Shown piece after piece: positions 2 to 41,708 of a DNA stretch of 41,837 bases. Numbering within the stretch: the first letter of the stretch is position 1; every line of letters starts with the position of its first letter. A program made the translations under genes and the position numbers. The notes under the pieces were generated by a model. It searched no databases. It was given only the letters and a program-made list of their open reading frames with translations, and had not been told where the DNA came from. This DNA is from Nitrosopumilaceae archaeon. GTDB lineage: Archaea; Thermoproteota; Nitrososphaeria; Nitrososphaerales; Nitrosopumilaceae. The stretch lies in the NCBI GenBank assembly GCA_021296175.1, contig JAGWAX010000002.1, positions 1 to 41,837 on the forward strand, read 5' to 3'.

Positions 2-460
2 CGCTGGTTTCTGTGCTACGAGGACGACGCGTCCAGGTTTGTAACGGGGTACGGAATCTTCGACAACGCCACTACCGAGAACGCCCTCAGGGTGCTTGAC
101 GAGGCCATCAGGAACCACGGCAGGCCGGCATCAATCATGACGGATCACGGCGTGCAGTTCTACGCAAACGAGAAAGAGGCCAAGAAGCGCGGCGAGAGCG
201 GGTTTGAGAAGAGACTGGTCGAGTTTGGCATACGCCAGATACTCGCAGGTGTGGGGCACCCGCAGACCAACGGCAAGATCGAGCGCCTGCACGGCGAGAT
301 ACAGCGCAAGCTGCACGAGTTTGAGGCCATAATGATGGGGAAGAGCGATCCGATGGACCTGTTCATGCAGTGGTATAACTACCGCCGGACGCACATGTCG
401 CTGAACGATGGCGAGACTCCTGCAGAGGCGTTTGAGAGAAAGATGGCGGATCATAGATGA
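2..460 (+). CDS. Integrase/transposase catalytic domain (rve family), 5'-truncated by window edge
   Basis: The reading frame is open from base 2 and ends with TGA at 458-460, so the N-terminus lies outside the window. The visible ~152 residues match an rve (IS3/retroviral-integrase-like) DDE core: an early acidic patch YEDDASR that probably holds the first Asp, then TDHGVQF holding the second Asp, then QTNGKIERLHG holding the catalytic Glu. A C-terminal RRTHMSLNDGETPAEAF segment is typical of these transposases. A GTG at 92 could be called as a start, but the homology clearly continues upstream of it. The role would be DNA strand transfer for an insertion sequence. No terminal inverted repeat could be identified to the right, and a second, decayed transposase follows directly. 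Whether this copy is active cannot be judged because its front end is missing. Confidence 0.85.
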   Translation, partial: RWFLCYEDDASRFVTGYGIFDNATTENALRVLDEAIRNHGRPASIMTDHGVQFYANEKEAKKRGESGFEKRLVEFGIRQILAGVGHPQTNGKIERLHGEIQRKLHEFEAIMMGKSDPMDLFMQWYNYRRTHMSLNDGETPAEAFERKMADHR

Positions 461-3534: not shown

Positions 3535-4773
3535 TCACAGTTCCGCCTTTGCCTCGTCGGCCCTGTCTCCGGTCTCAAGCCCCTTTAGCAGTCTGAGCGC
3601 ATCGGCCAGACCGTCGGCGTACCCTATGCTCAATATTGCCACGTCTCCGTGTCCCTCCTTTCTTATGAAATCTTCCGCGTCGTTCACGTACAGTCTGGCA
3701 TTCTCCAGAATCCCGTTCATTGCGCTGTCGCCTGCGCAACGCGCCGAGACCTCCTCTATCGATCTCCTTATCATCGGGGCGTACTTTGCAACCATCTGCT
3801 CTGCTATGCGGGCAGGGGCGTTGGGCCCGCCGCGCCACGGCGCATCCTCCCCCCCCTCCTGCGGCCGTACCGAATCACCGTCTGCACGGGGGGGTGGATC
3901 GATGCATTCGGCCAGCGTGGCCAGGGCATTGGTTTCCGTAAAGTGCAACCTTCCAGGGATGATCACGCTGTGGGGCGGGCTCCCGAACCCTTCCCTTGCA
4001 ACCAGACTTGATACCTTTCCGGCCACTATGCGCTGCTGCCGGTCCCCGAACCCCACCCTTGACGCCACTATGGCATACGTGTCGCCATACACCACGCCCC
4101 TTTGCTGGCCCTCCTCCGTATTCAGGAGCATTCTAAGCGCGTCGGCCGGCTCTAGAAAGAAGTTCCCGGGGCCGTCCAGCTCCGTGCCCTCGCGGTCGTA
4201 TTCGAGCAGGAGCATCGTATGGCACCGCTCCATCAGGTTCTTGTATATGGTATAGTAGGGAGTGGTCATCGACTTTGGGTCCCTCATTACGGTGGCCATC
4301 CTGCCCATCTTGTAGTGGTGCAGGCCGCACTGGCCCACAATCGAGAAGGGCGCCGAAGAGGCGTGTATGACACGTGTGCCGATGCCCTGCCTTGCGGCCC
4401 TGCAGAGCAGTTCTGCATGGGTGGTTGCGACCAGCGGATCTCCGTACGACAGCAAAACCACGTTCCTTGACTCTGCCTCCCTCAATATCTGGGCCCCGTC
4501 CTCAACCATCCACCTCTTCGCGTCCCTTATCTCGGCGCGGCTGCGGCTGCTACTGCCGCCGTCGCCGCCGCCGTCACCACCACCACGGCCGCTGCCCCCT
4601 ACAATGTCACGTGCGAGTGCGGTGAGGCCGCCCGTGGTGTCCGACGATGCTGTCTGTGGTGTCGGGCTTGTAAACTGCTCTGCATATATCACGTCTGCCC
4701 CGCGCAGTGCGGCGGCACCCCCCATCGGTATGGACTCCGTCCCCGATATGCCCGTCCCGACAAACCAGAGCAT
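3535..4773 (-). CDS. dphB: Diphthine synthase fused to a DUF357-like domain
   Basis: The 412-residue protein begins with the diphthine synthase (Dph5/DphB) hallmark MLWFVGTGISGTESIPMGGA and continues with LLSYGDPLVATTH (about 108-119), IHASSAPFSIVGQCGLHHYKMG and YDREGTELDGPGNFF. The enzyme methylates the diphthamide precursor on the translocation GTPase aEF-2 using S-adenosylmethionine. Archaeal DphB is usually about 265 residues. Two additions explain the extra length: a Gly/Asp/Ser-rich insert at about 58-80, and a C-terminal segment at about 318-405 that resembles the small archaeal DUF357 helical protein (YAPMIRRSIEE, ENARLYVNDAEDFIRKEGHGDVAILSIGYADGLADAL). Its ATG shares one base with the lysK TAA (TAATG), so it is the last gene of the lysW-lysX-lysK unit. 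No functional link to lysine synthesis is apparent beyond co-transcription. Confidence 0.9.
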   Translation of the reverse strand: MLWFVGTGISGTESIPMGGAAALRGADVIYAEQFTSPTPQTASSDTTGGLTALARDIVGGSGRGGGDGGGDGGSSSRSRAEIRDAKRWMVEDGAQILREAESRNVVLLSYGDPLVATTHAELLCRAARQGIGTRVIHASSAPFSIVGQCGLHHYKMGRMATVMRDPKSMTTPYYTIYKNLMERCHTMLLLEYDREGTELDGPGNFFLEPADALRMLLNTEEGQQRGVVYGDTYAIVASRVGFGDRQQRIVAGKVSSLVAREGFGSPPHSVIIPGRLHFTETNALATLAECIDPPPRADGDSVRPQEGGEDAPWRGGPNAPARIAEQMVAKYAPMIRRSIEEVSARCAGDSAMNGILENARLYVNDAEDFIRKEGHGDVAILSIGYADGLADALRLLKGLETGDRADEAKAEL

Positions 4774-5969
4774 TACCCCGACCTCGCCTCTCTTGCCACC
4801 TTTTTGTCGTGAAGAATCTTTAGCTTTTTGAGGGTCTCCTTTAGTATCTCGATCCCCCGGAGGTATTCAGATATCGACACCTTTTCGTCTCTCGTGTGTG
4901 ACTCGTGCGGATCACCGGGGCCGTACGTCACGACGGGTATCTTCCACTGGTATCCGAGAACGTTCATGTCGCCCGTCCCGGTCTTTCGGACAAGCAGCGG
5001 ACGCTCCTCTTCCATCTCCAGTATGCCCAGCGCAAAGGCCCTGACCAGGGGCGAGTTGTGCGGGGCCTCAAAGGGTTCGGTCTCGTCCAGTATGGAATAG
5101 AACGGGTCGACCCCGAGCTGCCGGCCGGCCTCACGGACCAGGGTCGCAACCCGCCGCTCGGTCTCCTTGCAGCTGCCGCCCACCGGTATCCGGATGTCAA
5201 ATATTGTCTCGCACTCAGAGGGTGTGACGTTGTGACTCGTGCCGCCCTTGATCATCGTTATGGTGGCAGTCAGCATGGCCCCCTTGCTCTTTCCCTCCTG
5301 GCCGCCCTCCAGCTCCTCCCTGAGCTTTGTCGCAAAGGCCATGGACTCGATGATGGCGTTCTTTGAGAGCCACGGCGCGCTTGCGTGCGAACTGTCCTTT
5401 GAGCGCACCCGGAGGTTTATGGCAAGCCTTCCCTTGTACGCTATCGTGACCTGCTTGATGCCGCTTGGCTCGCCGAATATGGCATAGTCGGCGTCCATCT
5501 TCTCCTGTACCAAATTCTTGATTCCAGTCGCGTTTCCCTCCTCGTCTATGGCGCCGACAAATGTTATGGTGCCGCTGCCCTCCGGCATTCCGGCGGCTGC
5601 AAAGAGCATTGCCATCAGAGGGGCCTTTGCGTCCGACGCCCCGCGTCCGTACATATAGTCGCCCTCTACTCGGACCGGCACCTTTCCGGGCACTACGTCC
5701 ATGTGTCCGCACAGTATGATGTTGGGCGAGCCGCTCCCCCTCTTGGCAATGACGTTTCCCACCTCGTCGATTCTGACGTCCTCGAATCCCAGCTCACCGC
5801 ATCTTGCGACCAGGAACTCTGCCATTGGTCCCTCGTGCTTGGAGAGCGTGTACAGATCGAGGGCCTCTTTGAGCATCCTAGTCTCGTATCTTTCTGCCGC
5901 CGATGCCGCCGATGCCGACGCGTCCCGCACTGTCGTCACATCCTCTGCTGCCGGCGAATCCACATGCAT
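4773..5969 (-). CDS. lysK: [LysW]-lysine / [LysW]-ornithine hydrolase (M20 peptidase family)
   Basis: The 398-residue product is an M20 metallohydrolase. Visible motifs are CGHMDVVPG (metal ligand His about 89, Asp about 91), YGRGASDAKAP (bridging Asp about 113) and GAIDEEGNATG (catalytic Glu pair about 143-144), followed by the dimerisation-domain stretch YKGRLAINLRVRSKDSSHAS. In LysW pathways LysK releases free lysine or ornithine from the carrier protein. The frame is open to 6029, but ATG at 5969 is preferred: a GAGG lies 5 nt upstream and its A is the last base of the lysX TGA (TGATG), a typical coupling arrangement. Only one lysK is visible beside two lysW genes, so it may serve both lysine and arginine routes. 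The general M20 family also includes ArgE/DapE, and context decides the call. Confidence 0.9.
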   Translation of the reverse strand: MHVDSPAAEDVTTVRDASASAASAAERYETRMLKEALDLYTLSKHEGPMAEFLVARCGELGFEDVRIDEVGNVIAKRGSGSPNIILCGHMDVVPGKVPVRVEGDYMYGRGASDAKAPLMAMLFAAAGMPEGSGTITFVGAIDEEGNATGIKNLVQEKMDADYAIFGEPSGIKQVTIAYKGRLAINLRVRSKDSSHASAPWLSKNAIIESMAFATKLREELEGGQEGKSKGAMLTATITMIKGGTSHNVTPSECETIFDIRIPVGGSCKETERRVATLVREAGRQLGVDPFYSILDETEPFEAPHNSPLVRAFALGILEMEEERPLLVRKTGTGDMNVLGYQWKIPVVTYGPGDPHESHTRDEKVSISEYLRGIEILKETLKKLKILHDKKVAREARSG

Positions 5970-6868
5970 CACTTCCTCTGCTCTCTTACCGCAAACTCTA
6001 GCATCATCCTTGGTATGTCCACGGCGCATACCCTTACGGTGTTCTTGTACTCTGTCGTGTTGTTTATCTCATGCACCACAAGCCCGCGCGACTCGTCCTC
6101 CATGAGGTCCACCCCGATTATGTCGCCGTGCACGGCCTCCTTGGCCTTTGCGCATATCTGCTCCATCTCCTGCGTCACCTTGCACGGGTCGGCCCTGCCG
6201 CCGAGCGCCGTATTGGTCTTCCAGTTGTCCCCCTCCGACGTCCTGTATATGGCCGCCACGACCTCGTCCCCGATTACGATGGCCCTGATGTCCCTGGGGG
6301 GCCTCTTGACGAACTCCTCCAGATAGTGGGTGTGGTGTATCGGATACATGGACTCCCTTCCCTCTATGATCCCTTCTGCCGCGTCCATGTCGGTCAGTTT
6401 TGAGACCAGCCTGCCCCAGCTGCCGACTGTCGGCTTTATCACGGCCGGAAGGCCGGTCTCCCTCAGGTGCGACATGGCCGCATCCTTTGAGAACGCCACC
6501 GTCGCGCGCGGCGTTCGCACGCCGGCCCTTGCAAGGAGCATGTGGGTGAAGAGCTTGTTTCCCGCCAAGATGCCGGTCTGCAGGCAGTTGACCACCCTGG
6601 CGCCCAGCCCCTCGAGGGCGGCAGTCGAGTGGAGGTTTCTGTAGTAGCTGACGCACCTCTGCAGTATGGTCCCGTACTCGGAGGCGGGATCCGCGTGCGG
6701 GGCGTCGCCGCCCCCGTGGCTGTTGTCGTCTCCTCCCGACCCGAGGTCCAGCGCTAGGCTTCTGCAGTCAAGCATGCGTACGTTGATGTCCGCCCTCCTA
6801 CCTGCCTCCAACAGGGCTTTTTCCTCCCATCGGATGGTATCATAAAGAACGGTAATGTCAGGATTCAC
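5969..6868 (-). CDS. lysX: Alpha-aminoadipate--LysW ligase (RimK-type ATP-grasp)
   Basis: The protein of about 299 residues is a RimK-like ATP-grasp ligase. It shows ITVLYDTIRWEEKAL at the start, GLPAVIKPTVGSWGRLVSKL (ATP-binding lid), FVKRPPRDIRAIVIGDEVVAAIYR and VVHEINNTTEYKNT at the end. It should join alpha-aminoadipate to the C-terminus of LysW with ATP. It is assigned LysX rather than ArgX because it lies between lysW and lysK, next to homocitrate synthase. Its tail also reads EYKN, resembling the FKN of Thermus LysX, whereas the paralogue at 13483 reads EFKG; this substrate inference is moderate. I choose GTG at 6868, which overlaps the lysW stop by four bases (GTGA), over TTG at 6877. 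A Gly/Asp/His-rich insert lies near residues 45-55. Confidence 0.88.
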   Translation of the reverse strand: MNPDITVLYDTIRWEEKALLEAGRRADINVRMLDCRSLALDLGSGGDDNSHGGGDAPHADPASEYGTILQRCVSYYRNLHSTAALEGLGARVVNCLQTGILAGNKLFTHMLLARAGVRTPRATVAFSKDAAMSHLRETGLPAVIKPTVGSWGRLVSKLTDMDAAEGIIEGRESMYPIHHTHYLEEFVKRPPRDIRAIVIGDEVVAAIYRTSEGDNWKTNTALGGRADPCKVTQEMEQICAKAKEAVHGDIIGVDLMEDESRGLVVHEINNTTEYKNTVRVCAVDIPRMMLEFAVREQRK

Positions 6869-7032
6869 TGCCCCCAATCCTCGCCGACCGTCTGGGCTGG
6901 CCTGAGATCAAAACCGTTCTCACCAGTCTTAAGCTCAAAGCTTGCGCCGCATTCGGGGCACGTAACAATCTCTCCCTCTAACGCATCGGCCGGAACGGGG
7001 ATCTCTGCATCGCATTCCTCGCAGTTTGACAT
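6865..7032 (-). CDS. lysW: LysW amino-group carrier protein, C-terminal Gln variant
   Basis: This 55-residue protein is too short for routine ORF calling. It has two CxxC knuckles (Cys 4, 7, 25, 28) forming the expected zinc site, an acidic body, and the family C-terminal signature GEDWG. In LysW the last residue is normally Glu, whose side-chain carboxyl is ligated to the amino group of the substrate. Here the final codon is CAG (Gln), followed by TGA. The paralogue at 14377 ends normally in Glu. The gene has its own TATA-like element (about 7053-7063) some 25 nt upstream of the ATG, suggesting a leaderless message, and it overlaps lysX by four bases. The Gln could be real or a one-base error (CAG for GAG). 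Confidence 0.9.
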   Translation of the reverse strand: MSNCEECDAEIPVPADALEGEIVTCPECGASFELKTGENGFDLRPAQTVGEDWGQ

Positions 7033-7152: not shown

Positions 7153-8430
7153 CTACTTGTTCGTGCCTGTCATCTTCTTCTCAAGCCTGTCGTCGACGGG
7201 CAGGTCGATCAGGTCCCCCAGTCCGAGCCCCTTGAGCCCCGCCGCCACGGCCCTTGCCTGCTTGTCGTCTCCCGACGTCTCGAGTCCCAGCAGGGACATC
7301 AGGTACGCGGCGCCGGTCTTTCCGGCCAGTCCGCCGAACACTATCCTCCTCCTGTTGCCCACCGCCCTTGGTGGTATGGGCTCGTACGCGGCGGGGTTCC
7401 TCAGTATGGCGGCCAGGTGCGTGCCGGCCTTGTGCTTGTACGCCGACGATCCCACCACCGGCTTTGAGTCGTACGGGGGCATGCCGGTATAGTCCTCGAT
7501 CAGCCTTGAGAGGTCCTGCAGCATGTCGAGCCTAAAGTCGTTGCCCGAGCCGTACAGGTACGTGAGGGCCACTGCCACTTCTGCCAGCGGCGGTATGCCC
7601 GTCCTCTCGCCAATCCCGTCAATGGTAGTGTGTATCTGGTCGACCCCCGCGTCGCACGCGGACAGTGCGTTTGCCACTGCAAGCCCCATGTCGTTGTGGA
7701 CGTGGACGTCAAGCGGCACGCTGATCTCGCTTCTCACGTACTTTACAAACTCGTACATTCCGGCCGGATGCATTATCCCCACCGTGTCCGGCAGGCTGAT
7801 CCTGTCCACCTTTGCCTCCTCTATCTGTTTGCACAGCGATATGAGGAACTCTGGGTCGGCTCTGCTGCCGTCCTCCACGGTAAACCTGATGTTTAGCCCG
7901 TGCTTTTTTGCATACTCCACGGTGTCTACTGCGCGCCGCGCTGCCTCCTGGCGCGTTATGCGGAGCTTGTCGCGGAGGTGGATGTCGGATATCCCGAGGT
8001 ACGCGGCGCACCACTTTGCGTCGCATCCGATCGACACGTCGATGTCCTCCCTGATGGCCCTGCCGTGTGACACTATGTCGGCCTGCAGTCCCTGCTTTAT
8101 GATGGTCTTAGTGGCCTCCCTGTGGTCGTCGGATATCACGGGCGATATCTCTATCTGGTCCACTCCAAAGTAGTCCAGCATCCACGCGATCTGGATCCGC
8201 TGCTTGTTTGTAAACGAGACCCCGGGATGCTGCTCGCCCTCCCTCAGGGTGCTGTCAAGGACGCGTATCTTTCTGTCTCCGTCCCCGGCGGGCAGGCCCG
8301 CCCTCTCCTCCAGCCCCCGCGCATTGTAGAAGTACGCGTGGGCGTTGGGGTCGGCCGCCTGCGGCGCGGACTGTCCGGTCCTTGGCGGGATCCTCTTGCC
8401 TGCCGCGGGCTGCACCCTCTTCCTTGCCAT
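7153..8430 (-). CDS. Homocitrate synthase (LysS/NifV-like, HMGL family)
   Basis: The 425-residue protein belongs to the LeuA/homocitrate synthase family. It has IRVLDSTLREGEQHPG (about 56-70; catalytic Arg and metal Asp), PLDVHVHNDMGLAVANA (HxH metal pair), TTIDGIGERTGIPPL, and AYKHKAGTHLAAIL with YEPIPP, a pattern close to Thermus homocitrate synthase. It condenses 2-oxoglutarate with acetyl-CoA, the first step of the aminoadipate route to lysine. The first ~50 residues are an extra Pro/Ala-rich extension. The frame reaches 8490, but a TATA element lies at 8454-8462, so ATG 8430, about 27 nt downstream, is the likely leaderless start. Isopropylmalate or citramalate synthase are alternatives, but the lysine gene context supports homocitrate synthase. 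Confidence 0.85.
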   Translation of the reverse strand: MARKRVQPAAGKRIPPRTGQSAPQAADPNAHAYFYNARGLEERAGLPAGDGDRKIRVLDSTLREGEQHPGVSFTNKQRIQIAWMLDYFGVDQIEISPVISDDHREATKTIIKQGLQADIVSHGRAIREDIDVSIGCDAKWCAAYLGISDIHLRDKLRITRQEAARRAVDTVEYAKKHGLNIRFTVEDGSRADPEFLISLCKQIEEAKVDRISLPDTVGIMHPAGMYEFVKYVRSEISVPLDVHVHNDMGLAVANALSACDAGVDQIHTTIDGIGERTGIPPLAEVAVALTYLYGSGNDFRLDMLQDLSRLIEDYTGMPPYDSKPVVGSSAYKHKAGTHLAAILRNPAAYEPIPPRAVGNRRRIVFGGLAGKTGAAYLMSLLGLETSGDDKQARAVAAGLKGLGLGDLIDLPVDDRLEKKMTGTNK

Positions 8431-8453
8431 GTGTGACGCTGTCCGATCAAGGG

Positions 8454-8483
8454 AATATAAGCATAATCGTACATGATTCGCTG
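8454..8483 (-). promoter_or_regulatory. Homocitrate synthase promoter with adjacent imperfect palindrome
   Basis: On the minus strand a TATA box (GCTTATATT, about 8454-8462) lies about 27 nt before ATG 8430. Directly upstream is AATCATGTACGATT (about 8465-8478), an imperfect inverted repeat. It could be an operator for the Lrp-type regulator encoded next door; this is inference. Confidence 0.5.
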
Positions 8484-8499
8484 ATATCATATGACATTA

Positions 8500-9015: not shown

Positions 9016-10299
9016 TCACGTCCTGTCCCTTTGCTCCTCGTCCAGTACGGCGTCGAGCCCGTCTAAAACCTTTGCCGCCTGGCCCTCCGATATGACAAGC
9101 GGCGGGAGTATCCTCAGTATGTTCCTGCCCGAGTACAGCATCAGTATGCCGCGGTCCATCAGCCTCTCCAGTATCCTCCTTACCTCGAGCTTTAGCTCCA
9201 CGCCTATCATGAGGCCCCTGCCGCGCACGTCCCTGATCATGCGGGGGTGCCTCTCCTTGAGGCCCAGGAGCCCGTCTGCAAATATCTTGCCTACCGCCGC
9301 AGAGTTCTCCACCAGGCCGTCCTGCGTCAGGGCGTCCAGCGTGGCGATGCCCGCCGCGCACGAGAGGGGGTTGCCGCCGAATGTCGAGGAGTGCTCCCCC
9401 TTTGACATTGCTCCGACTATCTCCGGTCTGGCAAGCGTGGCGCCCATCGGGACGCCGCCGGCTATGCCCTTTGCAAGGCACAGTATGTCCGGCGCCACGC
9501 CCCAGTGCTGGCAGGCCCACAGCTTTCCAGTCCTGCCGAGCCCGGCCTGTATCTCGTCAAATACCAGCAGGGCCCCGCGCTCGTCGCATATGCGCCTTGC
9601 CTCCTGCAGGAACCCGGGCGGCGCGACGTGTATGCCGCTCTCGCCTTGGATGGGTTCCATAATCACAAACGCGGTGTCGTCGTCCACCGCCTGGCGCAGG
9701 GCGTCGGCGTCCCCGAACGGCGTGAACTCCGCCCCCTCGATGAGGGGCTCGAACGGCCTGCGGTACTTTGGGCCGAACGTGATCGAGAGCGCGCCCAGCG
9801 ACTTTCCATGGTACGATCCCTTCATGGCTATCATTTTTTTGCGCCCCGTGTACTTTTTTGCAAACTTTATTGCGGCCTCGACTGCCTCGGCCCCGCTGTT
9901 GTTGAGGTGCACCTGCCCCAGTCCCTCCGGAGCCAGCCCCGTAAGCTTTTCGAGAAATTTTTCCCGGGTCGGGCTGTACAGGGAGCTGTGCACCGTGATT
10001 ATCTTGTTTGCCTGCTCGGTTATGGCGTCCATGACGCGCCTGTTGCGGTGTCCCAGCAGCGCCACCCCGTATCCTGCCATGCAGTCTATGTACTGGCGGC
10101 CGTCGGTATCCCACACGTCTGCCCCCTGGCCCCTCTCGATTGTGACTGGAAACCTCTGGTATAGCCCGCCCATGTATGCGTCCTCGGCGCGGATGCTGGC
10201 GGTGTTGCTGCTGCTGCTACCGCTGCTGCTACGGCCATTATCACCGCCGCCGCTGCCGCCGTTGCTGTTGCTGCCGCCGTTGCTGTTGCTGTCAATCAT
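9016..10299 (-). CDS. lysJ: [LysW]-aminoadipate/glutamate semialdehyde aminotransferase (class III, PLP)
   Basis: The 427-residue product is a class III aminotransferase of the ArgD/LysJ type. It carries HLNNSGAEAVEAAIKFAKKYTGR, MIAMKGSYHGKSLGALS, VIMEPIQGESG, LLVFDEIQAGLGRTG (PLP-ring Asp) and the Schiff-base Lys in CLAKGIAGGVPMGA. It transfers an amino group to LysW-bound semialdehyde, giving the lysine or ornithine precursor. Residues 1-36 are a Ser/Gly/Asn-rich low-complexity extension encoded by simple triplet repeats (about 10195-10295). The true folded protein starts near YMGGLYQRFPVTIERG. The ATG overlaps the lysZ stop by four bases (ATGA). Only one such aminotransferase is visible in the window. 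Confidence 0.9.
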   Translation of the reverse strand: MIDSNSNGGSNSNGGSGGGDNGRSSSGSSSSNTASIRAEDAYMGGLYQRFPVTIERGQGADVWDTDGRQYIDCMAGYGVALLGHRNRRVMDAITEQANKIITVHSSLYSPTREKFLEKLTGLAPEGLGQVHLNNSGAEAVEAAIKFAKKYTGRKKMIAMKGSYHGKSLGALSITFGPKYRRPFEPLIEGAEFTPFGDADALRQAVDDDTAFVIMEPIQGESGIHVAPPGFLQEARRICDERGALLVFDEIQAGLGRTGKLWACQHWGVAPDILCLAKGIAGGVPMGATLARPEIVGAMSKGEHSSTFGGNPLSCAAGIATLDALTQDGLVENSAAVGKIFADGLLGLKERHPRMIRDVRGRGLMIGVELKLEVRRILERLMDRGILMLYSGRNILRILPPLVISEGQAAKVLDGLDAVLDEEQRDRT

Positions 10300-11096
10300 T
10301 TCCTGATCACCGTGCAGCTCTCCTCTGCTATGGCCCTTGATATGGGGTTTTCGCGCCGTCCGCTTGCAATAAGCGCGGTGCGGACCCCCATGTCGATGGC
10401 CTCGGTGGACGCCAGTACCTTCTTCTCCATGCCCGGCCCTATCTTTGGCATTGCGTCTCGCGCCTCCTGCCTTGACATGCTTGTCACAAGCCTGTCGTCT
10501 AGCATCAGCCCGTCCACGTTGGTTATGAAAAGCACCTTGTCGGATCCGGTGGCGCCTGCCACGTTTGCCGCGGCCCTGTCGCCGTCGACGTTGAGCATCT
10601 CGTACTCCTCGCTTATGGCGACCGGCGATATCACCGGGACGATCCCCTGCCCGAGCAGGCCCTTGATGAACCCCGAGTTTATCTCCGATATCTTGCCCGT
10701 ATACCCGCCGTCGATCGCCTGCTTGCGCCCCTTTTCGTTTACTATTATGAGCCTCTTTTTGCGCTTCGCCCTTATGGTGCGGGCGTCGGCCCCGGAGAGC
10801 CCGACCGCGTTTATCCCGTTCTGCTGTAGCAGCCGGACTATCTCCTTGTTTACCATTCCGGACATTACCATCGTGAATATGCGCGCAGTCTCCCTGTCGG
10901 TGTACCTGCTCCTGATCCCGCTCGGGGAGGTCACAAACCTAGGCTCGTTTCCCATCTGCTCGCATACGCTTGTCACGGCCTTGCCGCCGCCGTGGACTAT
11001 AATGACGCTCTCGCAGTCGGCCACCTTCTTGATGTCCGATACGGCCGACGGATGCATCTCGTCGACCACGCTACCGCCAATCTTTATGGTGATCAT
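10296..11096 (-). CDS. lysZ: [LysW]-aminoadipate/glutamate kinase
   Basis: The 266-residue protein is an amino-acid kinase of the ArgB/LysZ family. It has MITIKIGGSVVDE (phosphate-binding Lys/Gly motif), VIIVHGGGKAVTSVCEQMG, GLSGADARTIRAKRKK, MLNVDGDRAAANVAGATGSDKVLFITNVDGLM and the ending KKVLASTEAIDMGVRTALIASGR. It phosphorylates the distal carboxyl of LysW-bound aminoadipate or glutamate. The frame is open to 11243, but ATG 11096 gives the normal family N-terminus, and an A/T-rich TTATTATTG on the minus strand (about 11124-11132) sits 25-30 nt upstream as a TATA-like element. It is the first gene of the lysZ-lysJ-Lrp unit. Confidence 0.9.
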   Translation of the reverse strand: MITIKIGGSVVDEMHPSAVSDIKKVADCESVIIVHGGGKAVTSVCEQMGNEPRFVTSPSGIRSRYTDRETARIFTMVMSGMVNKEIVRLLQQNGINAVGLSGADARTIRAKRKKRLIIVNEKGRKQAIDGGYTGKISEINSGFIKGLLGQGIVPVISPVAISEEYEMLNVDGDRAAANVAGATGSDKVLFITNVDGLMLDDRLVTSMSRQEARDAMPKIGPGMEKKVLASTEAIDMGVRTALIASGRRENPISRAIAEESCTVIRK

Positions 11097-11327
11097 CTTA
11101 TATGGTGCCCCCGCCGCGCCGTCAATAATAACGGTGCGTACGCCCTGGCGGCAGATACGGGGCACGTGATTACAACGTGAGCATGGCGGCTGCCTGTTCT
11201 GTGTATCGTGCTGCCAATGACAGCAGAGCCGTAGAAGACGCATCTACACGAGGGATCAATATCCTCCAATCAGTCAGGCAAGGGCGAGATCCGTAAGAAT
11301 TTTGTTGAAGCTTATTCAGTGGCCTGT

Positions 11328-12335: not shown

Positions 12336-13385
12336 TCAGACCGGGGTCAGCGGCGTGTGGAGCAGTCCCTCGGACTCGTCAAAGCCGCACATGACGTTCA
12401 TGTTCTGTATGGCGGAGCCGGCAGCCCCCTTCATGAGGTTGTCGGACGCAGAGAGGGACACCAGCCTGCCGTTGTCCTCGTCTATGTCAAACCCGATGTC
12501 GCAAAAGTTCGAGCCCACCAGAAACTTTGGGTCGGGGAACTTGTAGAGCCCCTTCTTGTCGCGTATGAGCCTCACGAACCTTTCGTCGCCGTATTCTGAG
12601 CGGTACATCTTCCACAGATCCCTTTCGTTCACGTCCCTCGTCAGGAACGTGTGGTTGGTGCACAGTATGCCCCTGACGACGTCGACTGCGTGCGGGGACA
12701 TCGACACCCTGATCTTGCGCCCCGCAACCTCGCTGAGCTCCTGCTCGATCTCGCCGGTATGCCTGTGCTTTGCGGGTTTGTAGGGCCTGATGACGCCGGC
12801 CCTCATCGCATGGGCGGTTCCCGAGCCCGAACCGGCCCCCGACGAGCCTATCTTGGAGTCCACCACGATGTGGTCTGTGTCTATAATGTCGTTTTTGACC
12901 AGCGGCGCGAGCGCCAGCATCGAGGTGACTGCCATGCATCCGGGGCAGGACACCAGCTGCGCGTCCCTTATGGTGTCCCTGTGGAGCTCCGGCACGCCGT
13001 ATACGGACTTGGGGAGATAGTCCGGATGCGGGTGCTCCCACCCGTACCACTTGTCGTACCCCTCCTGGTCGTGCAGCCTATAGTCCGCGCTCAGGTCTAT
13101 TATCTTGATGCCGCGGTCGTACAGCGCCTTTACAATCTCAGTGGCCGTCCCGTGCGGGACCGCCGTGAATACCAGGTCGCACTTGTCGGCCACCCTGTCA
13201 TAGTCCATCTCGGAGAACACCAAGTCGGTGAACCCCTTGAGGCTCGGCTGCACCCTGTGCAGGTACTCGCCCACGTGCTGCCTGGACGTCACCATCGTGA
13301 TCTCCGCCTTTGGGTGCGTGACGAGCAGCCTGAGGGTCTCGCCGCCGACGTATCCTGACGCGCCCACGACACCGACCTTTACCAT
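12336..13385 (-). CDS. lysY: [LysW]-aminoadipyl/glutamyl phosphate reductase (ArgC/LysY family)
   Basis: The 349-residue protein is an ArgC-type semialdehyde dehydrogenase. It has MVKVGVVGASGYVGGETLRLL (NADP-binding loop), VFTAVPHGTA, the catalytic cysteine region LVSCPGCMAVTSMLALAPL, SKIGSSGAGSGSGTAHA and HRHTGEIEQEL. It reduces the LysW-bound acyl phosphate to the semialdehyde, the step between LysZ and LysJ. The frame is open to 13463, but ATG 13385 gives the canonical start, and a TATA element (ATAAATTA on the minus strand, about 13407-13414) lies about 25 nt upstream. It follows argX but has its own promoter. As the only ArgC-like gene in view it may act in both lysine and arginine synthesis. 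Confidence 0.92.
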   Translation of the reverse strand: MVKVGVVGASGYVGGETLRLLVTHPKAEITMVTSRQHVGEYLHRVQPSLKGFTDLVFSEMDYDRVADKCDLVFTAVPHGTATEIVKALYDRGIKIIDLSADYRLHDQEGYDKWYGWEHPHPDYLPKSVYGVPELHRDTIRDAQLVSCPGCMAVTSMLALAPLVKNDIIDTDHIVVDSKIGSSGAGSGSGTAHAMRAGVIRPYKPAKHRHTGEIEQELSEVAGRKIRVSMSPHAVDVVRGILCTNHTFLTRDVNERDLWKMYRSEYGDERFVRLIRDKKGLYKFPDPKFLVGSNFCDIGFDIDEDNGRLVSLSASDNLMKGAAGSAIQNMNVMCGFDESEGLLHTPLTPV

Positions 13386-13482
13386 GCAGGCGCGCTCCGC
13401 GCGGGATAATTTATGTCCTGCACCGTGGGGAATTCCCCGCGCGGTTCCTGCGCGCCGGCGCACGCGTTCGCGGCAGATATAA

Positions 13483-14370
13483 TCACTTTCTTGCGGTGTC
13501 TACGGCAAACTGCACCATGGCTTGGGGGATGTTTCTCTCGGAGACCTTTGAGATTCCCTTGAACTCCACGGTATTGTTCACCTCGTGGACCACCAGGCGG
13601 CCGTCCTCCCTTTCCATCAGGTCGATCCCCAGTATGCCGCCGCCCACCGCGTCTGACGCGGCCGATGCCAGCTCGGCCATCTCGGTCGTCATCTTGCAGG
13701 CGACCGGGTCGCCGCCCAGGGCCAGGTTGGCCCTAAAGCCCCCGCCTGCCGACATCCTGTACATGGCCGACACCGGCTCGCCGCCCACCGTAATGACCCG
13801 TATGTCGCGCGTCCGGCCCTCCGCATCCTCGGATCGCCGTATCACCTCCTGCAGGTAGAATATCCGGTCAAACGGGCCGTCGGTCACCGATCTTGCCTCC
13901 AGTATGGCGGCAAGCGTGTCGGGGCCCCTTATCGGGATGACGCCCCTCCCCCAGCTGCCCACCACCGGCTTTATCACGAGGGGGTATCCCGCATCCTTCA
14001 TGACGTTCTCCGCCGCCTCGGCCGAGAATGCAAAGTGCGTCTTGGGGGTGGGCACGCCGGCCCTCTTGAGCCGGAGGGTCATTACCATCTTGTTTCCGCA
14101 TGCGGCGGCCACCGCGTACGCGTTTATCACGCTCATGTCCAGCGACTCTAGCACGGACGTCATGTGCAGCCCCCTGAAATAGCTGACGCACCGCTCAAGT
14201 ACGACGTCGCACCTGCCGCCGGGAATGACGTCCCCCGGCGCAGAGTCGGTGGCCGATACGGCGGTCTTGGCATCCAGCATCTGGGTCTGGCAGCCGAGCG
14301 ACTCGGCCTCCGACTTTAGCATCTTTTCCTCGGCCCTCAGGCGGTCAAAGGCAATGCAGAGCCTCGTCAT
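13483..14370 (-). CDS. argX: Glutamate--LysW ligase (RimK-type ATP-grasp)
   Basis: The 295-residue protein is a paralogue of the ligase at 5969-6868. It shows MTRLCIAFDRLRAEEKML, YPLVIKPVVGSWGRGVIPI (ATP lid), TRDIRVITVGGEPVSAMYR, GGFRANLALGGDP and VVHEVNNTVEFKGI. It should attach glutamate to LysW2 for ornithine/arginine synthesis. This assignment rests mainly on context: it lies directly after argG and lysW2. The C-terminal EFKG differs from EYKN of the lysine-side paralogue and fits a different substrate, though I cannot verify specificity. The start is ATG 14370, six bases after the lysW2 TAG, with a purine-rich GGGGAGAG upstream inside lysW2. Confidence 0.85.
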   Translation of the reverse strand: MTRLCIAFDRLRAEEKMLKSEAESLGCQTQMLDAKTAVSATDSAPGDVIPGGRCDVVLERCVSYFRGLHMTSVLESLDMSVINAYAVAAACGNKMVMTLRLKRAGVPTPKTHFAFSAEAAENVMKDAGYPLVIKPVVGSWGRGVIPIRGPDTLAAILEARSVTDGPFDRIFYLQEVIRRSEDAEGRTRDIRVITVGGEPVSAMYRMSAGGGFRANLALGGDPVACKMTTEMAELASAASDAVGGGILGIDLMEREDGRLVVHEVNNTVEFKGISKVSERNIPQAMVQFAVDTARK

Positions 14371-14376
14371 CGCCTG

Positions 14377-14544
14377 CTACTCTCCCCAGTCTTCACCCAC
14401 TGTCTCTGCCTGCTTCAGCTTGATGCCAGAGCCGTCCCTGCCTGCAACCTCATAGTCGGCTCCGCAGTCGGGGCACGATACTATCTCGCCCACGTCGGCA
14501 TCATCGGGTATGCCGAGCCCTGCGTCGCATTCCTGACAGTTCAT
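14377..14544 (-). CDS. lysW: LysW-type amino-group carrier protein, canonical C-terminal Glu
   Basis: This second 55-residue carrier has CxxC pairs at Cys 3/6 and 24/27, an acidic middle, and the family C-terminus AETVGEDWGE. The terminal Glu is the residue whose side-chain carboxyl is linked to glutamate or aminoadipate in this family. Its ATG overlaps the argG stop by four bases (ATGA), and argX follows six bases after its TAG, so argG-lysW2-argX form one tightly coupled operon. Compared with the copy at 6865-7032 it differs in much of the middle but keeps the zinc ligands. Context suggests it is used mainly for arginine, possibly for both pathways given the Gln end of the other copy. Confidence 0.93.
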   Translation of the reverse strand: MNCQECDAGLGIPDDADVGEIVSCPDCGADYEVAGRDGSGIKLKQAETVGEDWGE

Positions 14545-15740
14545 GATTTTTCTGCCCTTGCCTCTTGTAATTTATTAGCTTCTGTAAGCTGCATGCCCCA
14601 TATCTCGACGAACCCCGCCGCCATCCTCTGGTCAAAGGTCGAGCCGGTCCCGTATGTGGACCTCCTCTGGTCGTACAGCGAGTTTCCGGACTTGCGCCCC
14701 ACCACCCGGAGGCTGCCCTTGTAGAGCCTGAGCCTGACGGTTCCCGTCACGGGCTCCTGCGACGCCTCGATGAACGCGTCCAGGCATCCCTTGAGGGGAT
14801 CCTGCCACAGTCCCGCATACGCCAGGTACGCCCACTCCGCGTCGACCGTCCTTTTGAACCTGCCCGTGCGGCCCGTATGCACCATCTTCTCGAGATCCGC
14901 GTGCGCCTCTATGAGACATGCCGCCGCAGGGGTCTCGTATATCTCGCGGGACTTTATGCCCACCGTGCGGTCCTCTATGTGGTCCACTATACCGACCCCC
15001 GCCCTGCCGGCCTTCTCGTTGAGGTGCTCTATAATCCTCCGCGGCTCCATCCTTCTTCCGTCTATCTTGGTGGGGACGCCGCGCTCAAACGATATCTCGA
15101 CGTACGCGGGGCTGTCCGGCATGTCCCTCGTGCTGACCCATGCAAACGCGCTGTCCGGCGGCTCCGCGTACGGATCCTCGATGTCCCCGCCCTCTATTGC
15201 GCGCCCCCACAGGTTCTGGTCTATGCTGTACCTCTTTGCGACGGTCTCTATCCTTATCCCGCGCTTGCGGGCAAACTCCAGCTCGGCCGCCCTGTCAAGG
15301 TTCTTTTCCCTGATCGGGGCGATGATGGGCAGGTCGGATCCCGATCGGAGCGCCAGGTCAAACCTGACCTGGTCGTTTCCCTTGCCGGTGCACCCGTGGG
15401 CGAGCGCCGAGACGTTCTCCTTTCTTGCAACTTCCAGCACCTTTTGCGCAATCAGCGGCCTCGCAAGCGCGGTTGCAAGGCAGTACTTGCCCTGGTACAG
15501 GGCGTTTGCCTTTATTGCGGGAAACACATAGTCCGTGACAAACTCCGACCTAGCGTCGATGCTGTAGTGCCTCCTGACCCCCAGGCTCTTTGCCTTTGCA
15601 GCTATGGCCCGCTTGTCGTCGTTCTGGCCCACGTCGACGGTCACCGTAACGACGTCAAGGCCGTGCTCCTCCTGCAGGTACTTTACCACCACCGACGTGT
15701 CGAGCCCCCCGGAGAACGCCAGTATTCCTTTTTCTGCCAT
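14541..15740 (-). CDS. argG: Argininosuccinate synthase
   Basis: The 399-residue product is full length for ArgG. It carries the N-type PP-loop ILAFSGGLDTSVVVKYL, LAHGCTGKGNDQVRFDLALR, and the C-terminal region with DHIEDRTVGIKSREIYETPAA and STYGTGSTFDQRMAAGFVEIWG. It joins citrulline and aspartate using ATP, the penultimate step of arginine synthesis. ATG 15740 is the only sensible start. A minus-strand TATA-like AAATTTATC (plus coordinates 15767-15775) lies about 30 nt upstream. It heads the operon with lysW2 and argX. No argH or argF homologue is visible in the window. Confidence 0.95.
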   Translation of the reverse strand: MAEKGILAFSGGLDTSVVVKYLQEEHGLDVVTVTVDVGQNDDKRAIAAKAKSLGVRRHYSIDARSEFVTDYVFPAIKANALYQGKYCLATALARPLIAQKVLEVARKENVSALAHGCTGKGNDQVRFDLALRSGSDLPIIAPIREKNLDRAAELEFARKRGIRIETVAKRYSIDQNLWGRAIEGGDIEDPYAEPPDSAFAWVSTRDMPDSPAYVEISFERGVPTKIDGRRMEPRRIIEHLNEKAGRAGVGIVDHIEDRTVGIKSREIYETPAAACLIEAHADLEKMVHTGRTGRFKRTVDAEWAYLAYAGLWQDPLKGCLDAFIEASQEPVTGTVRLRLYKGSLRVVGRKSGNSLYDQRRSTYGTGSTFDQRMAAGFVEIWGMQLTEANKLQEARAEKS

Positions 15741-19950: not shown

Positions 19951-19966
19951 TGTAAATGTTTACAAA
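19951..19966 (+). promoter_or_regulatory. Palindromic A/T-rich element before second metH gene
   Basis: TGTAAATGTTTACA (19951-19964) has perfect six-base inverted arms around a two-base centre and merges with TTTACAAA, a plausible TATA box, about 25 nt before ATG 19989. It could be both promoter and regulator site. Confidence 0.5.
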
Positions 19967-19988
19967 CATCGTGGATTTCCACTTCCAC

Positions 19989-22616
19989 ATGGCAGTACCA
20001 AGGGTAAGCTCGGCGCTGGTTGCTGTGGACCTCAGGCAGCTGCCACCCCCCATGATAATAGGCGAGCGGCTCAACACGCAGGGCTCCAGAAAGGCAAAGC
20101 AGATGGTGCTTGACGGGGACTATGACGGACTCGTAAGCCTAGGCCGCTCGCAGGCCGAGGAGGGGGCCCACTGCATCGACGTCTGCGTGGCCACTACGGA
20201 AAAGTCCGACGAGCTGGAGTTCATGGTAAACCTGGTAAAGAGGCTCAGCCTCGAGGTCGAGGCCCCGCTCGTAATAGACTCGACTGATCCCGACGTGATA
20301 CGGGCGGCAATACGGCAGGCTCCGGGCAGGCCCATAATCAACTCGATAAATCTGGAGGGGGACGGTTCGCGCTTTGCAAGCCTGGCCCCCGTAATGGCCG
20401 AGTACGGCACCCCGGCAATCGCGCTGTGCATAGGCCCCGGCGGCATGGCAAAGACGGCCAAGGAGAAGCTGGAGACGGCAAGGCTCCTGTTCGAGGAGGG
20501 GCGAAAGTACGGGCTGACGCAGGACCAGTACATATTCGACGTCCTGACGTTCACGCTTGCGACGGGCCAGGACGAGTTTCGCGGCGCGGGAGTCGAGACG
20601 CTGGAGGGCATCAGGCAGGTCAAAAAGGAGTTTCCCGACTCGTTTACCGCGCTGGGCCTGAGCAACATCAGCTTTGGCCTCACGCCCCCGGCGCGGCGCA
20701 TTCTCAATTCCGTGTTTCTGTACCATGCCATACGGGCCGGGCTTGACGCGGCCATCGTAAACGCCAGGGAGATAATACCGTACGGAGAGATTGACAAGAA
20801 GGAGAGCGGCCTTGCCGAGGACCTCATATTTGACTGCGGCCCGGACGCGCTCTCAAGATTCGTGTCATACTTTGAGGGCGGCGGGGGGGCAGGGAGTGGC
20901 AGTGGCGGCGGCGCCAGAAAGCGAAGGGGCCCCGAGATCGACGCGTCGTGGCCGCCTGCAAAACGGGCAAACTTTAGGATTGTAAACCGGCTTGCCGACG
21001 GCATCGCACAAGACGTGGTACACGCCATAGCCATGCAGGCGGGGCTCGAATCCCGCATAATCCCGGACAAGGGGAGGGATGGGGGAGATGCGGATGCCGT
21101 TACAATCGACGCGCCGCGGCCGAAGACCCATGGCGCCGCCATACACGTGCTCAACGAGAGCCTGCTGCCGGCCATGAAGGAGGTAGGCGACAGGTTCGGC
21201 GCCGGCGAGCTCATACTGCCGTTTGTTCTAAAGTCGGCAGAGTGCATGAAGGCGGCCGTCGGAGAGCTTGAGAGGTACCTGGTAAAGGAGGAGGGCGGTG
21301 CAAGCAAGGGCAAGCTGGTGCTCGGCACCGTATACGGAGACGTGCATGACATTGGCAAGAACCTGGTAAAGACCATATTCCAGAACAACGGGTATGCCGT
21401 ATACGATCTGGGCAAGCAGGTGCCGCTCCAGAAATTCCTCGACAAGATTGCAGAGGTGAGGCCGGACGCAGTCGGTCTGTCGGCCCTGCTCGTGTCTACC
21501 TCGAGGCAGATGCAGCTGTTCGTGGAGCATGCGCGCGAAAACAAGATGGACACGCCTGTCCTGTGCGGGGGCGCCGCCATCAACAGCAGCTACATCAACA
21601 GGATTGCGACGACAGACGGGGGCAGAAAGGACGCGCTGTACGAGCCGGGCGTCTTTTACTGCAATACGATGTTCGACGGGCTAAGGATAATGGACGCGCT
21701 CGTAGACGACGCGCGGAGAAAGGAGATGCTCGCGGACTGGAGGCAGGGCCTCTCAAAGTGGCAGGCAAGGCAGGAGTCGCTCTCCAAGGCCAGGGCGGCC
21801 GGGGCAGGGCCAGACGGCAAGTCGGGGAGCGCGTCTGCGGGGGAAAGGAGTCCCGAGAGGAGCGCAGTCGCGCCGGTGCGGCCGCCTGCCGTGCCCCGCT
21901 CCATGAGGCTGGGGATTCCGGCAAGGCTGCCGCCCGGCGACATTCCGATGGGGGACGTCTGGCCCCTTGTCGACACAAAGTCGCTTTACAGGCTGTCCTG
22001 GGGCGTGCGCGGCAGAGGGGCCGGCAGGGAGTCGCAAGAGGACCACGAGAGGCTGTTCTTGTCGTGGCAGCGGAGAATTGCATCTGAGCGCATGTTCGAG
22101 CCCCGGGTGGTGTACGGGTACTTTAGGTGCCACAACAGGGGTGGCGCCGTACTCGACGTGGAGGATGCAAAGGGCGACATCGTGTCGTTTGCCTTTCCGC
22201 GCTCGCAAAAGGCGGAGCGGCTGTGCCTTGCTGACTACTTTGGCAAAGACGACGTGGTGGCGCTCCAGTCGGTTACGGTAGGCTCAAGGGTCACCGACAC
22301 GATAGAGGAATGGAACAGGAAGGGCATGTATACGGACGCGTACTATCTGCACGGGCTTGCAGTCGAGGCGGCCGAGGCGCTGGCGGAGTGGACCAACCGG
22401 CGCATCAGGTCGGAGCTGAACCTCGACGGCGGATGCCTCCGGTACAGTTGGGGCTATCCAAGCTGCCCGGACCTGGCGCAGCATGCGCTGGTCTGGCGCC
22501 TGCTGGAGCCGCAGCACTCTGACATGACCCTGACGGAGTCAGGGCAGATCGTGCCCGAGCACTCCACAGCGGCCATAGTAGTGCACCACCCCGGATCCAA
22601 GTATTTCGTACTGTAG
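19989..22616 (+). CDS. metH: Methionine synthase, folate-, cobalamin- and SAM-binding part
   Basis: The 875-residue protein carries the remaining MetH modules in order. A pterin-binding domain (about 15-290) has MIIGERLNTQGSRKAKQMV and INSINLEGDG. A cobalamin cap follows (about 385-440). The Rossmann B12 domain (about 440-570) has GTVYGDVHDIGKN, whose His (about 453) is the cobalt ligand. The reactivation domain (about 640-875) has LRYSWGYPSCPD and HSTAAIVVHHPGSKYFVL. It moves the methyl group from methyl-tetrahydrofolate through cobalamin to homocysteine held by the upstream subunit. A Gly/Ser/Arg-rich linker at about 300-320 and a basic linker at about 598-630 are low-complexity insertions. 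The frame extends to 19956, but an A/T-rich promoter-like palindrome lies there, so ATG 19989 is preferred. Confidence 0.93.
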   Translation: MAVPRVSSALVAVDLRQLPPPMIIGERLNTQGSRKAKQMVLDGDYDGLVSLGRSQAEEGAHCIDVCVATTEKSDELEFMVNLVKRLSLEVEAPLVIDSTDPDVIRAAIRQAPGRPIINSINLEGDGSRFASLAPVMAEYGTPAIALCIGPGGMAKTAKEKLETARLLFEEGRKYGLTQDQYIFDVLTFTLATGQDEFRGAGVETLEGIRQVKKEFPDSFTALGLSNISFGLTPPARRILNSVFLYHAIRAGLDAAIVNAREIIPYGEIDKKESGLAEDLIFDCGPDALSRFVSYFEGGGGAGSGSGGGARKRRGPEIDASWPPAKRANFRIVNRLADGIAQDVVHAIAMQAGLESRIIPDKGRDGGDADAVTIDAPRPKTHGAAIHVLNESLLPAMKEVGDRFGAGELILPFVLKSAECMKAAVGELERYLVKEEGGASKGKLVLGTVYGDVHDIGKNLVKTIFQNNGYAVYDLGKQVPLQKFLDKIAEVRPDAVGLSALLVSTSRQMQLFVEHARENKMDTPVLCGGAAINSSYINRIATTDGGRKDALYEPGVFYCNTMFDGLRIMDALVDDARRKEMLADWRQGLSKWQARQESLSKARAAGAGPDGKSGSASAGERSPERSAVAPVRPPAVPRSMRLGIPARLPPGDIPMGDVWPLVDTKSLYRLSWGVRGRGAGRESQEDHERLFLSWQRRIASERMFEPRVVYGYFRCHNRGGAVLDVEDAKGDIVSFAFPRSQKAERLCLADYFGKDDVVALQSVTVGSRVTDTIEEWNRKGMYTDAYYLHGLAVEAAEALAEWTNRRIRSELNLDGGCLRYSWGYPSCPDLAQHALVWRLLEPQHSDMTLTESGQIVPEHSTAAIVVHHPGSKYFVL

Positions 22617-41057: not shown

Positions 41058-41708
41058 CTAGTCCCACTTGGACCAAGCGGCCATCCATCTGTACGTCCAC
41101 GTGTTGAGCTTGCAGCCCAACGCGGCAAACGTACAAGCCAGCACCGCACCAGCACCGGCACCCAACGCGACCGGACTATTGTAGAACTTGCCTACTTGCG
41201 GTTCTATCGGCGTCATGTATGGCGGTAATGTCGGTCTCGGATACTTGAATGCCGTTTCCAACGGATCGGCCACCGTTATCAGGTTCACCATGTTAAACAG
41301 TGGTAACGACATTCCAACCAGTACGCCGCCAAACAGGATCAGCGAGTGCTTGTTCTTCTTTGTCGCCCAGTATACCAAGTCAAGCAACATTGCCGACGGC
41401 AACCAGACTGGCGTCACTATGAAGTCGTACGGGTAGCCGAGCGCAAACCATGCCCCCTTGGCGACCCATGTATACACGGTCATGATTAACGCATAATACG
41501 TGGCCGTACCTGGAACGCCTGTAAAGGTAAGATAGTAGGTAGCACCAACTACAAGCATCAGCGTCTGCGATATTGAGAATACCGTATACGATGTCCAAGC
41601 CCAGTCAGTATAGAAGATGTAATCTCCCGCATTAATCGTCAGCAGCGTAGAGTTAACTGCAACCACTACTATGAACAAGTAGTGTGTACATCGTCTTAAC
41701 CAGACCAT
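41058..41708 (-). CDS. amoA: Archaeal ammonia monooxygenase subunit A
   Basis: The 216-residue membrane protein is recognisably archaeal AmoA: NAGDYIFYTDWAWTSYTVFSISQTLMLVVGATYYLTFTGVPGTATYYALIMTVYTWVAKGAWFALGYPYDFIVTPVWLPSAMLLDLVYWATKK, and the ending NTWTYRWMAAWSKWD. It belongs to the copper membrane monooxygenase family that oxidises ammonia to hydroxylamine, and has about six hydrophobic spans. It is full length. amoB and amoC are not in the window; they could lie beyond the right edge. Codon use is A/T-richer than in neighbouring genes. The marker identifies the organism as an ammonia-oxidising archaeon. Confidence 0.98.
   Translation of the reverse strand: MVWLRRCTHYLFIVVVAVNSTLLTINAGDYIFYTDWAWTSYTVFSISQTLMLVVGATYYLTFTGVPGTATYYALIMTVYTWVAKGAWFALGYPYDFIVTPVWLPSAMLLDLVYWATKKNKHSLILFGGVLVGMSLPLFNMVNLITVADPLETAFKYPRPTLPPYMTPIEPQVGKFYNSPVALGAGAGAVLACTFAALGCKLNTWTYRWMAAWSKWD

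Follow-up and report, generated by a model that had tools for sequence, protein, structure and literature searches.

A C-terminal glutamine conserved in the lysine-side LysW carrier of ammonia-oxidising archaea, probably a capped glutamate

Amino-group carrier proteins of the LysW/ArgW type that have been studied bear their substrate on a C-terminal glutamate. In the window, i.e., the whole 41,837-nucleotide stretch of DNA analyzed here, the lysine-side lysW gene ends in GAG GAT TGG GGG CAG TGA, and the last encoded residue is glutamine (EDWGQ), in contrast to a second copy, which is encoded with EDWGE. Both codon readings, made in the initial annotation, were confirmed. The locus thus raises the question of how a carrier with glutamine at its cargo position can be loaded.

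The features concerned are listed in Table 1. Their order on the minus strand is argG, lysW/argW, argX, argC, argB/lysZ, argD/lysJ, a gene for an Lrp-type regulator, the homocitrate-synthase-like gene, lysW, lysX and lysK. The assignment of the EDWGQ copy to the lysine side, also made initially, was borne out: the adjoining ligase passes the LysX model, and it lies between the homocitrate-synthase-like gene and the gene for the [LysW]-lysine hydrolase. The arginine-side ligase, located between argG and argC, reached 252.4 bits against TIGR02144, under the cut-off of 275.6. LysK also matched the [LysW]-lysine hydrolase model PRK04443 (276.1 bits, under its cut-off of 363), and its best solved relative is 5xoy, a [LysW]-lysine hydrolase. 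An archaeal amoA (PF12942) is present at window positions 41115-41663 (-), which identifies the source as an ammonia oxidiser. Judged from isolate names alone, its closest named relatives (L033-L035) seem to be sponge-associated bins.

Table 1. Coordinates of the lysine- and arginine-biosynthesis features in the window, with the supporting model matches.
Feature	Position	Strand	Evidence
lysW (lysine side), zinc-ribbon carrier	6865..7032	-	55-aa ORF, encoded C-terminus EDWGQ
terminal lysW codon CAG (Gln)	6868..6870	-	third base = G of lysX GTG start
lysX, RimK/ATP-grasp ligase (alpha-aminoadipate type)	5969..6868	-	TIGR02144 302.5 bits (cut-off 275.6); GSWGR intact
lysK, M20 [LysW]-lysine/ornithine hydrolase	4773..6029	-	TIGR01902 267.7 bits (cut-off 163.1)
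lysW/argW (arginine side)	14377..14544	-	55 aa, encoded C-terminus EDWGE; NF041070 82.5 bits
argX, RimK/ATP-grasp ligase, arginine side	13483..14370	-	rimK_fam 225.7 bits (cut-off 143.4)
argC/lysY reductase	12336..13463	-	TIGR01850 409.1 bits (cut-off 233.6)
argB/lysZ, [LysW]-aminoadipate/glutamate kinase	10296..11243	-	NF010662 287.4 bits (cut-off 194)
argD/lysJ aminotransferase	9016..10299	-	TIGR00707 419.7 bits (cut-off 410.05)
homocitrate/isopropylmalate-synthase-like enzyme, upstream of lysW	7153..8490	-	best PRK00915 402.8, LysS_fung_arch 369.4 bits, both below cut-offs
argG, argininosuccinate synthase	14541..15740	-	PF20979, PF00764

The EDWGQ protein carries the zinc-binding cysteine pairs (CEEC...CPEC) and the EDWG tail, and it matched NF041070, the NCBIfam model for archaeal LysW/ArgW carriers, at 82.1 bits (cut-off 75) and PF21344 at 45.7 bits (cut-off 27). 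It has the zinc-ribbon fold, length and EDWG tail in common with the carriers of Thermus, Sulfolobus, Thermococcus and Natrinema, as well as a paired gene for an ATP-grasp ligase (LysX/ArgX) that reads the tail through its GSWGR motif, and the kinase, reductase, aminotransferase and hydrolase genes alongside. It departs from such carriers in the encoded C-terminal glutamate, since CAG specifies glutamine. The older LysW equivalog TIGR01206 (cut-off 53.2) was reached neither by this protein (28.3 bits) nor by the Glu-ended copy of the window (38.3 bits), so this model is unsuited to the group. Five other Gln-ended LysW proteins, two from one family of ammonia-oxidising archaea and three from other lineages, passed NF041070. 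At the final residue this model hardly separates Gln from Glu (82.1 and 82.3 bits, with 81.1 bits for Ala), so its seed probably holds Gln-ended sequences. A sensitive protein search of the window's genome returned these two LysW copies only, one with each end.

The last codon had been thought to be constrained by two genes. The GTG start of lysX (6868-6866) overlaps lysW by GTGA, and of the CAG codon lysX takes in just the third base. Whether Gln or Glu is encoded depends on the first base, outside lysX, and this decisive position is thus free of the proposed double-coding constraint. GAG-ended lysW copies with the identical GTGA overlap also exist.

A pattern search for EDWGQ followed by a stop codon gave matches in 219 of 250 genomes of the family, covering all 22 genera, and in 126 of the 131 family genomes of good quality; the reversed control pattern gave zero matches in the same 250 genomes. 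Comparison of the last codon with that of relatives, as proposed initially, was made on 80 named relatives forming a collection separate from the 250. CAG TGA was found in 76 of them, including Nitrosopumilus sp. Nsub, Ca. N. salaria BD31 and Marine Group I strain L19a, and GAG TGA in four, GAG being limited to a handful of species. Many of the genomes analyzed are metagenome bins, and cultured isolates are also among those with a Gln-ended LysW. The last codon is almost always CAG (CAA in 8 of 108 distinct genes), the preceding glycine codon varies freely (GGA, GGG, GGC, GGT), and the median pN/pS of Gln-ended lysW is 0.13, corresponding to purifying selection.

Sequencing error, one of the four explanations originally offered, is refuted by these counts, as an end conserved in hundreds of independent genomes is not an artifact of sequencing or assembly. 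A related proposal is programmed misreading of CAG as glutamate by uncorrected Glu-tRNA(Gln). Archaea make Gln-tRNA by amidating Glu-tRNA(Gln), and some misreading is conceivable; however, CAG is an ordinary codon, so every protein would be hit. Error and misreading together were given practically no weight.

The distribution of the two ends was followed by side, lysine or arginine, as judged from gene neighbors, ligase sequence and tree position. Families f1, f2 and f3 are probably Nitrosopumilaceae, Nitrosocaldaceae and Nitrososphaeraceae, an assignment based on amoA among other evidence. In f1, glutamine is found on the lysine side, where nearly all of the 219 pattern genomes have it; five lysine-side Glu exceptions were seen (G114, G147, G148, G161, G169). 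The arginine-side copy of f1 mostly ends in Glu, with Gln in G018 and, judged by sequence, in G244. Genus g23 of f2 has Gln on the lysine-side copy and Glu on the arginine-side copy. In f3, both copies end in Gln in many genomes, and genera g30 and g36 reverse the arrangement of f1, with Glu on the lysine side and Gln on the arginine side. The dominance of Gln on the lysine side of f1 and of Glu on its arginine side indicates that the two residues are not fully equivalent. A small Nitrosopumilus subclade (L045, L051, L074, L096, with one Lake Hoare bin) is back to Glu on the lysine side, and its lysX is one codon shorter just past the overlap. Within the class Nitrososphaeria, the sampled lineages without amoA end in Glu, and every sampled Gln case is in an amoA-bearing family.

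Gln ends were also found outside Nitrososphaeria. In genus g89 of f31 a Gln-ended LysW was the only end-motif match in six of six genomes, and in g115 it was present in two of five. Gln likewise occurs in f36 g95 and g143, with Glu in g119; G540 is Gln-ended as opposed to its Glu-ended congener G505, and G516 is Gln-ended as well. An exclusive link of the Gln end to ammonia oxidation was rejected on this basis, the tie to amoA not being exclusive. A match in G456, also obtained in the phylum search, was due to chance, with no zinc ribbon upstream. Trees of the adjacent ligase, computed by FastTree (238 rows) and by IQ-TREE under a site-mixture model (135 rows), both require at least 14 changes between Glu and Gln, a count that is approximate because some branches are weakly supported; several of the changes fall between members of one genus. 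In much of the sampled phylum only Glu was seen, though LysK occurs there too, so some factor may still restrict the lineages that tolerate a Gln end.

Genomes encoding no other LysW end were of particular weight. Three single-contig genomes of 99% completeness (G304, G297, G303) have exactly two LysW each, both EDWGQ; further matches in the sensitive protein search were weak (E above 0.06) and lacked the tail. That search covered 15 genomes in addition to the window's own, and pattern searches miss any LysW without EDWG. Two more single contigs of 99% completeness (G288, G296) have exactly one LysW each, Gln-ended, beside two ligases, LysX and ArgX, so this one carrier must serve both. In G296, G293 and G288 (L288, L289, L290; genus g24) argG adjoins argX directly: argW, which would lie between the two, is lost, and the lysine-side LysW is the sole carrier for two ligases. 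The arrangement is like that of Sulfolobus, where a single LysW serves LysX and ArgX in lysine and arginine synthesis, with the difference that the single carrier of g24 (G288, G296) ends in Gln. In G005 (L144, L240), a single 3.2 Mb contig that is 96% complete, only an arginine-side LysW was found, and its lysine-side copy seems to have been lost.

The initial annotation had also suggested that the Glu-ended copy might be used for both pathways, or that the Gln-ended LysW is specialised or regulatory. The window genome, with one copy of each end, would permit an inactive or regulatory Gln-ended LysW whose Glu-ended partner carries the substrates of both pathways. Such rescue is impossible in the complete Gln-only genomes, among them those with one LysW for two ligases, and reliance of both pathways on the Glu-ended copy cannot be a general solution. 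In the six genomes of another lineage the Gln-ended LysW is the only end-motif match, and the Gln copy is kept beside lysX under purifying selection. As a general explanation the inactive or regulatory reading is refuted, and as an account of the Gln-ended LysW it appears scarcely credible. The existence of Gln-only genomes makes a specialised or regulatory LysW unlikely, and in the Gln-only organisms themselves it is very unlikely that the protein is dead or serves regulation alone. There, the Gln-ended LysW must be able to bear substrate in both pathways, whether it is first deamidated or used through the amide. The Gln end is real, conserved, evolutionarily interchangeable with Glu and, in some complete genomes, the sole LysW end.

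The end residue itself matters, since the argW(E54A) mutant of Natrinema is an arginine auxotroph (PMC10433800). The GSWGR motif of LysX/ArgX reads EDWGE (PMC10433800), and a gamma linkage is established for the LysW of Thermus, Sulfolobus and Thermococcus (cited in PMC10433800). A scan of 232 genomes for other LysW end residues, which took last codons starting with A or T, gave 12 matches; ten were fetched, and none was a LysW. These results bear on the proposal that the terminal residue takes its substrate on the alpha-carboxyl, for which Gln and Glu would be equally good. Although their free interchange would then be explained without a deamidase, other end residues would be expected, and none was seen among last codons starting with A or T. 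Both the gamma linkage and the auxotrophy of E54A also speak against alpha-carboxyl loading, which was considered very improbable.

Deamidation is the best supported of the four possibilities originally raised. The terminal glutamine is probably a capped glutamate on a working amino-group carrier that is deamidated before loading; this reading is favored because the end residue matters, GSWGR is intact, only Gln and Glu alternate, which differ by an amide, and the pattern resembles that of Pup. The side-chain amide of the terminal Gln would be hydrolysed to Glu after translation, LysX would activate the freed gamma-carboxyl with ATP and then attach alpha-aminoadipate, and ArgX would likewise attach glutamate on the arginine side. 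After loading, the pathway would proceed as in Thermus and Sulfolobus.

The likeness is to PupQ of actinobacteria, a small protein ligated via the side-chain carboxyl of its last residue. Pup ends in Gln or Glu depending on the species, and Dop, which converts PupQ to PupE, also removes Pup from its targets (PMC8599861). In that system the tag-removing enzyme is also the deamidase, whereas for LysW we infer both the deamidation and the enzyme. Homology is not proposed: Pup has no zinc-ribbon fold, and the enzyme that ligates it is a relative of glutamine synthetase, that of LysW a relative of RimK.

Under deamidation, attention falls on LysK, whose family hydrolyses the gamma-glutamyl amide of LysW-lysine. 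LysW-Gln would present the same gamma-amide that LysK normally cleaves, with ammonia replacing lysine or ornithine, and LysK, encoded immediately downstream of lysX, could remove the terminal amide. All 20 genomes tested encode a LysK scoring over the family cut-off, most of them a single one. Encoded after lysX, present in 20/20 genomes and a relative of [LysW]-lysine hydrolase, it is the simplest and the favored candidate for the deamidase. The leaving group that LysK binds is an amino acid, which counts against this role, and overall LysK is proposed tentatively, as a candidate that may or may not prove correct. LysK has columns specific to ammonia-oxidising archaea, but these are inseparable from common descent.

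Alternatively, deamidation of LysW-Gln could be due to a separate amidase. Archaea hold many amidases, and LysK is general whereas the Gln-ended LysW has a patchy distribution. On the other hand, no such gene stands out in the window operon, and CheD, the known archaeal protein-glutamine deamidase, was absent from 16 of the 20 genomes tested, including the Gln-only G288 and G296. CheD was rejected as the deamidase on account of its absence from most genomes, and a separate amidase, as one form of deamidation, is judged unlikely. A third RimK-type ligase that might append Glu was found in none of nine genomes, each having two ligases.

With regard to the ligase, the EDWGE-reading GSWGR motif was intact in 140 of 140 ligases beside a Gln-ended LysW, and 45 of the 55 columns that are near-invariant in ligases of Glu-only lineages were equally kept there. 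In the Glu-reverted Nitrosopumilus subclade, LysX differs only within the overlap and at its far end, and a single conservative change is seen in LysK. The ligase might also use glutamine directly: with ADP and phosphate, LysX would phosphorolyse the side-chain amide to the acyl-phosphate that it normally makes with ATP, release ammonia and pass the acyl group to alpha-aminoadipate, a reaction likened to the gamma-glutamyl transferase reaction of glutamine synthetase. Such amide exchange would require no further enzyme, Pup provides a known case of Dop-type catalysis on a terminal Gln with ADP/phosphate, and GSWGR is intact in every ligase concerned. However, no ATP-grasp ligase is known to carry out amide exchange, LysX showed no clear change tied to Gln, and recycled LysW would be Glu in any case. 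Direct use of Gln was regarded as improbable. It is quite improbable that Gln is a pre-activated acyl donor, never hydrolysed beforehand, with LysX/ArgX loading fresh LysW by amide exchange; were this so, an ammonia-oxidising archaeon would need no ATP for loading its first substrate.

Most members of an abundant ammonia-oxidising archaeal family encode Gln at the cargo position, and some species encode nothing else. Deamidation of this Gln would make a maturation step not yet described a requirement for their lysine and arginine synthesis, and would mean that a capped tail like that of PupQ evolved twice, the second time in a carrier unrelated to Pup. Neither EDWGQ nor deamidation of LysW-Gln was found in the literature searched, which was that available without subscription. 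A Nitrosopumilus metabolic model adds the LysW pathway, apparently with no discussion of the end residue (PMC6038301). There was no sign that the consequence of a Gln-ended LysW had already been drawn, and removal of the cap seems to be a step that nobody has reported for the LysW pathway.

Two further features of the window were noted. Low-complexity stretches rich in Gly, Ser, Asp and Asn occur within housekeeping enzymes (5969-6868, the N-terminus of 9016-10299, 3535-4773 and 19956-22616). The stretch in LysX, at residues about 47-66, varies in length and sequence among L033, L034, L035 and the window, and the Nitrosopumilus LysX copies compared (L036, L054) are without it. At the window edge, an ORF at 92-460 (+) resembles, by eye only, the end of an integrase-type transposase.
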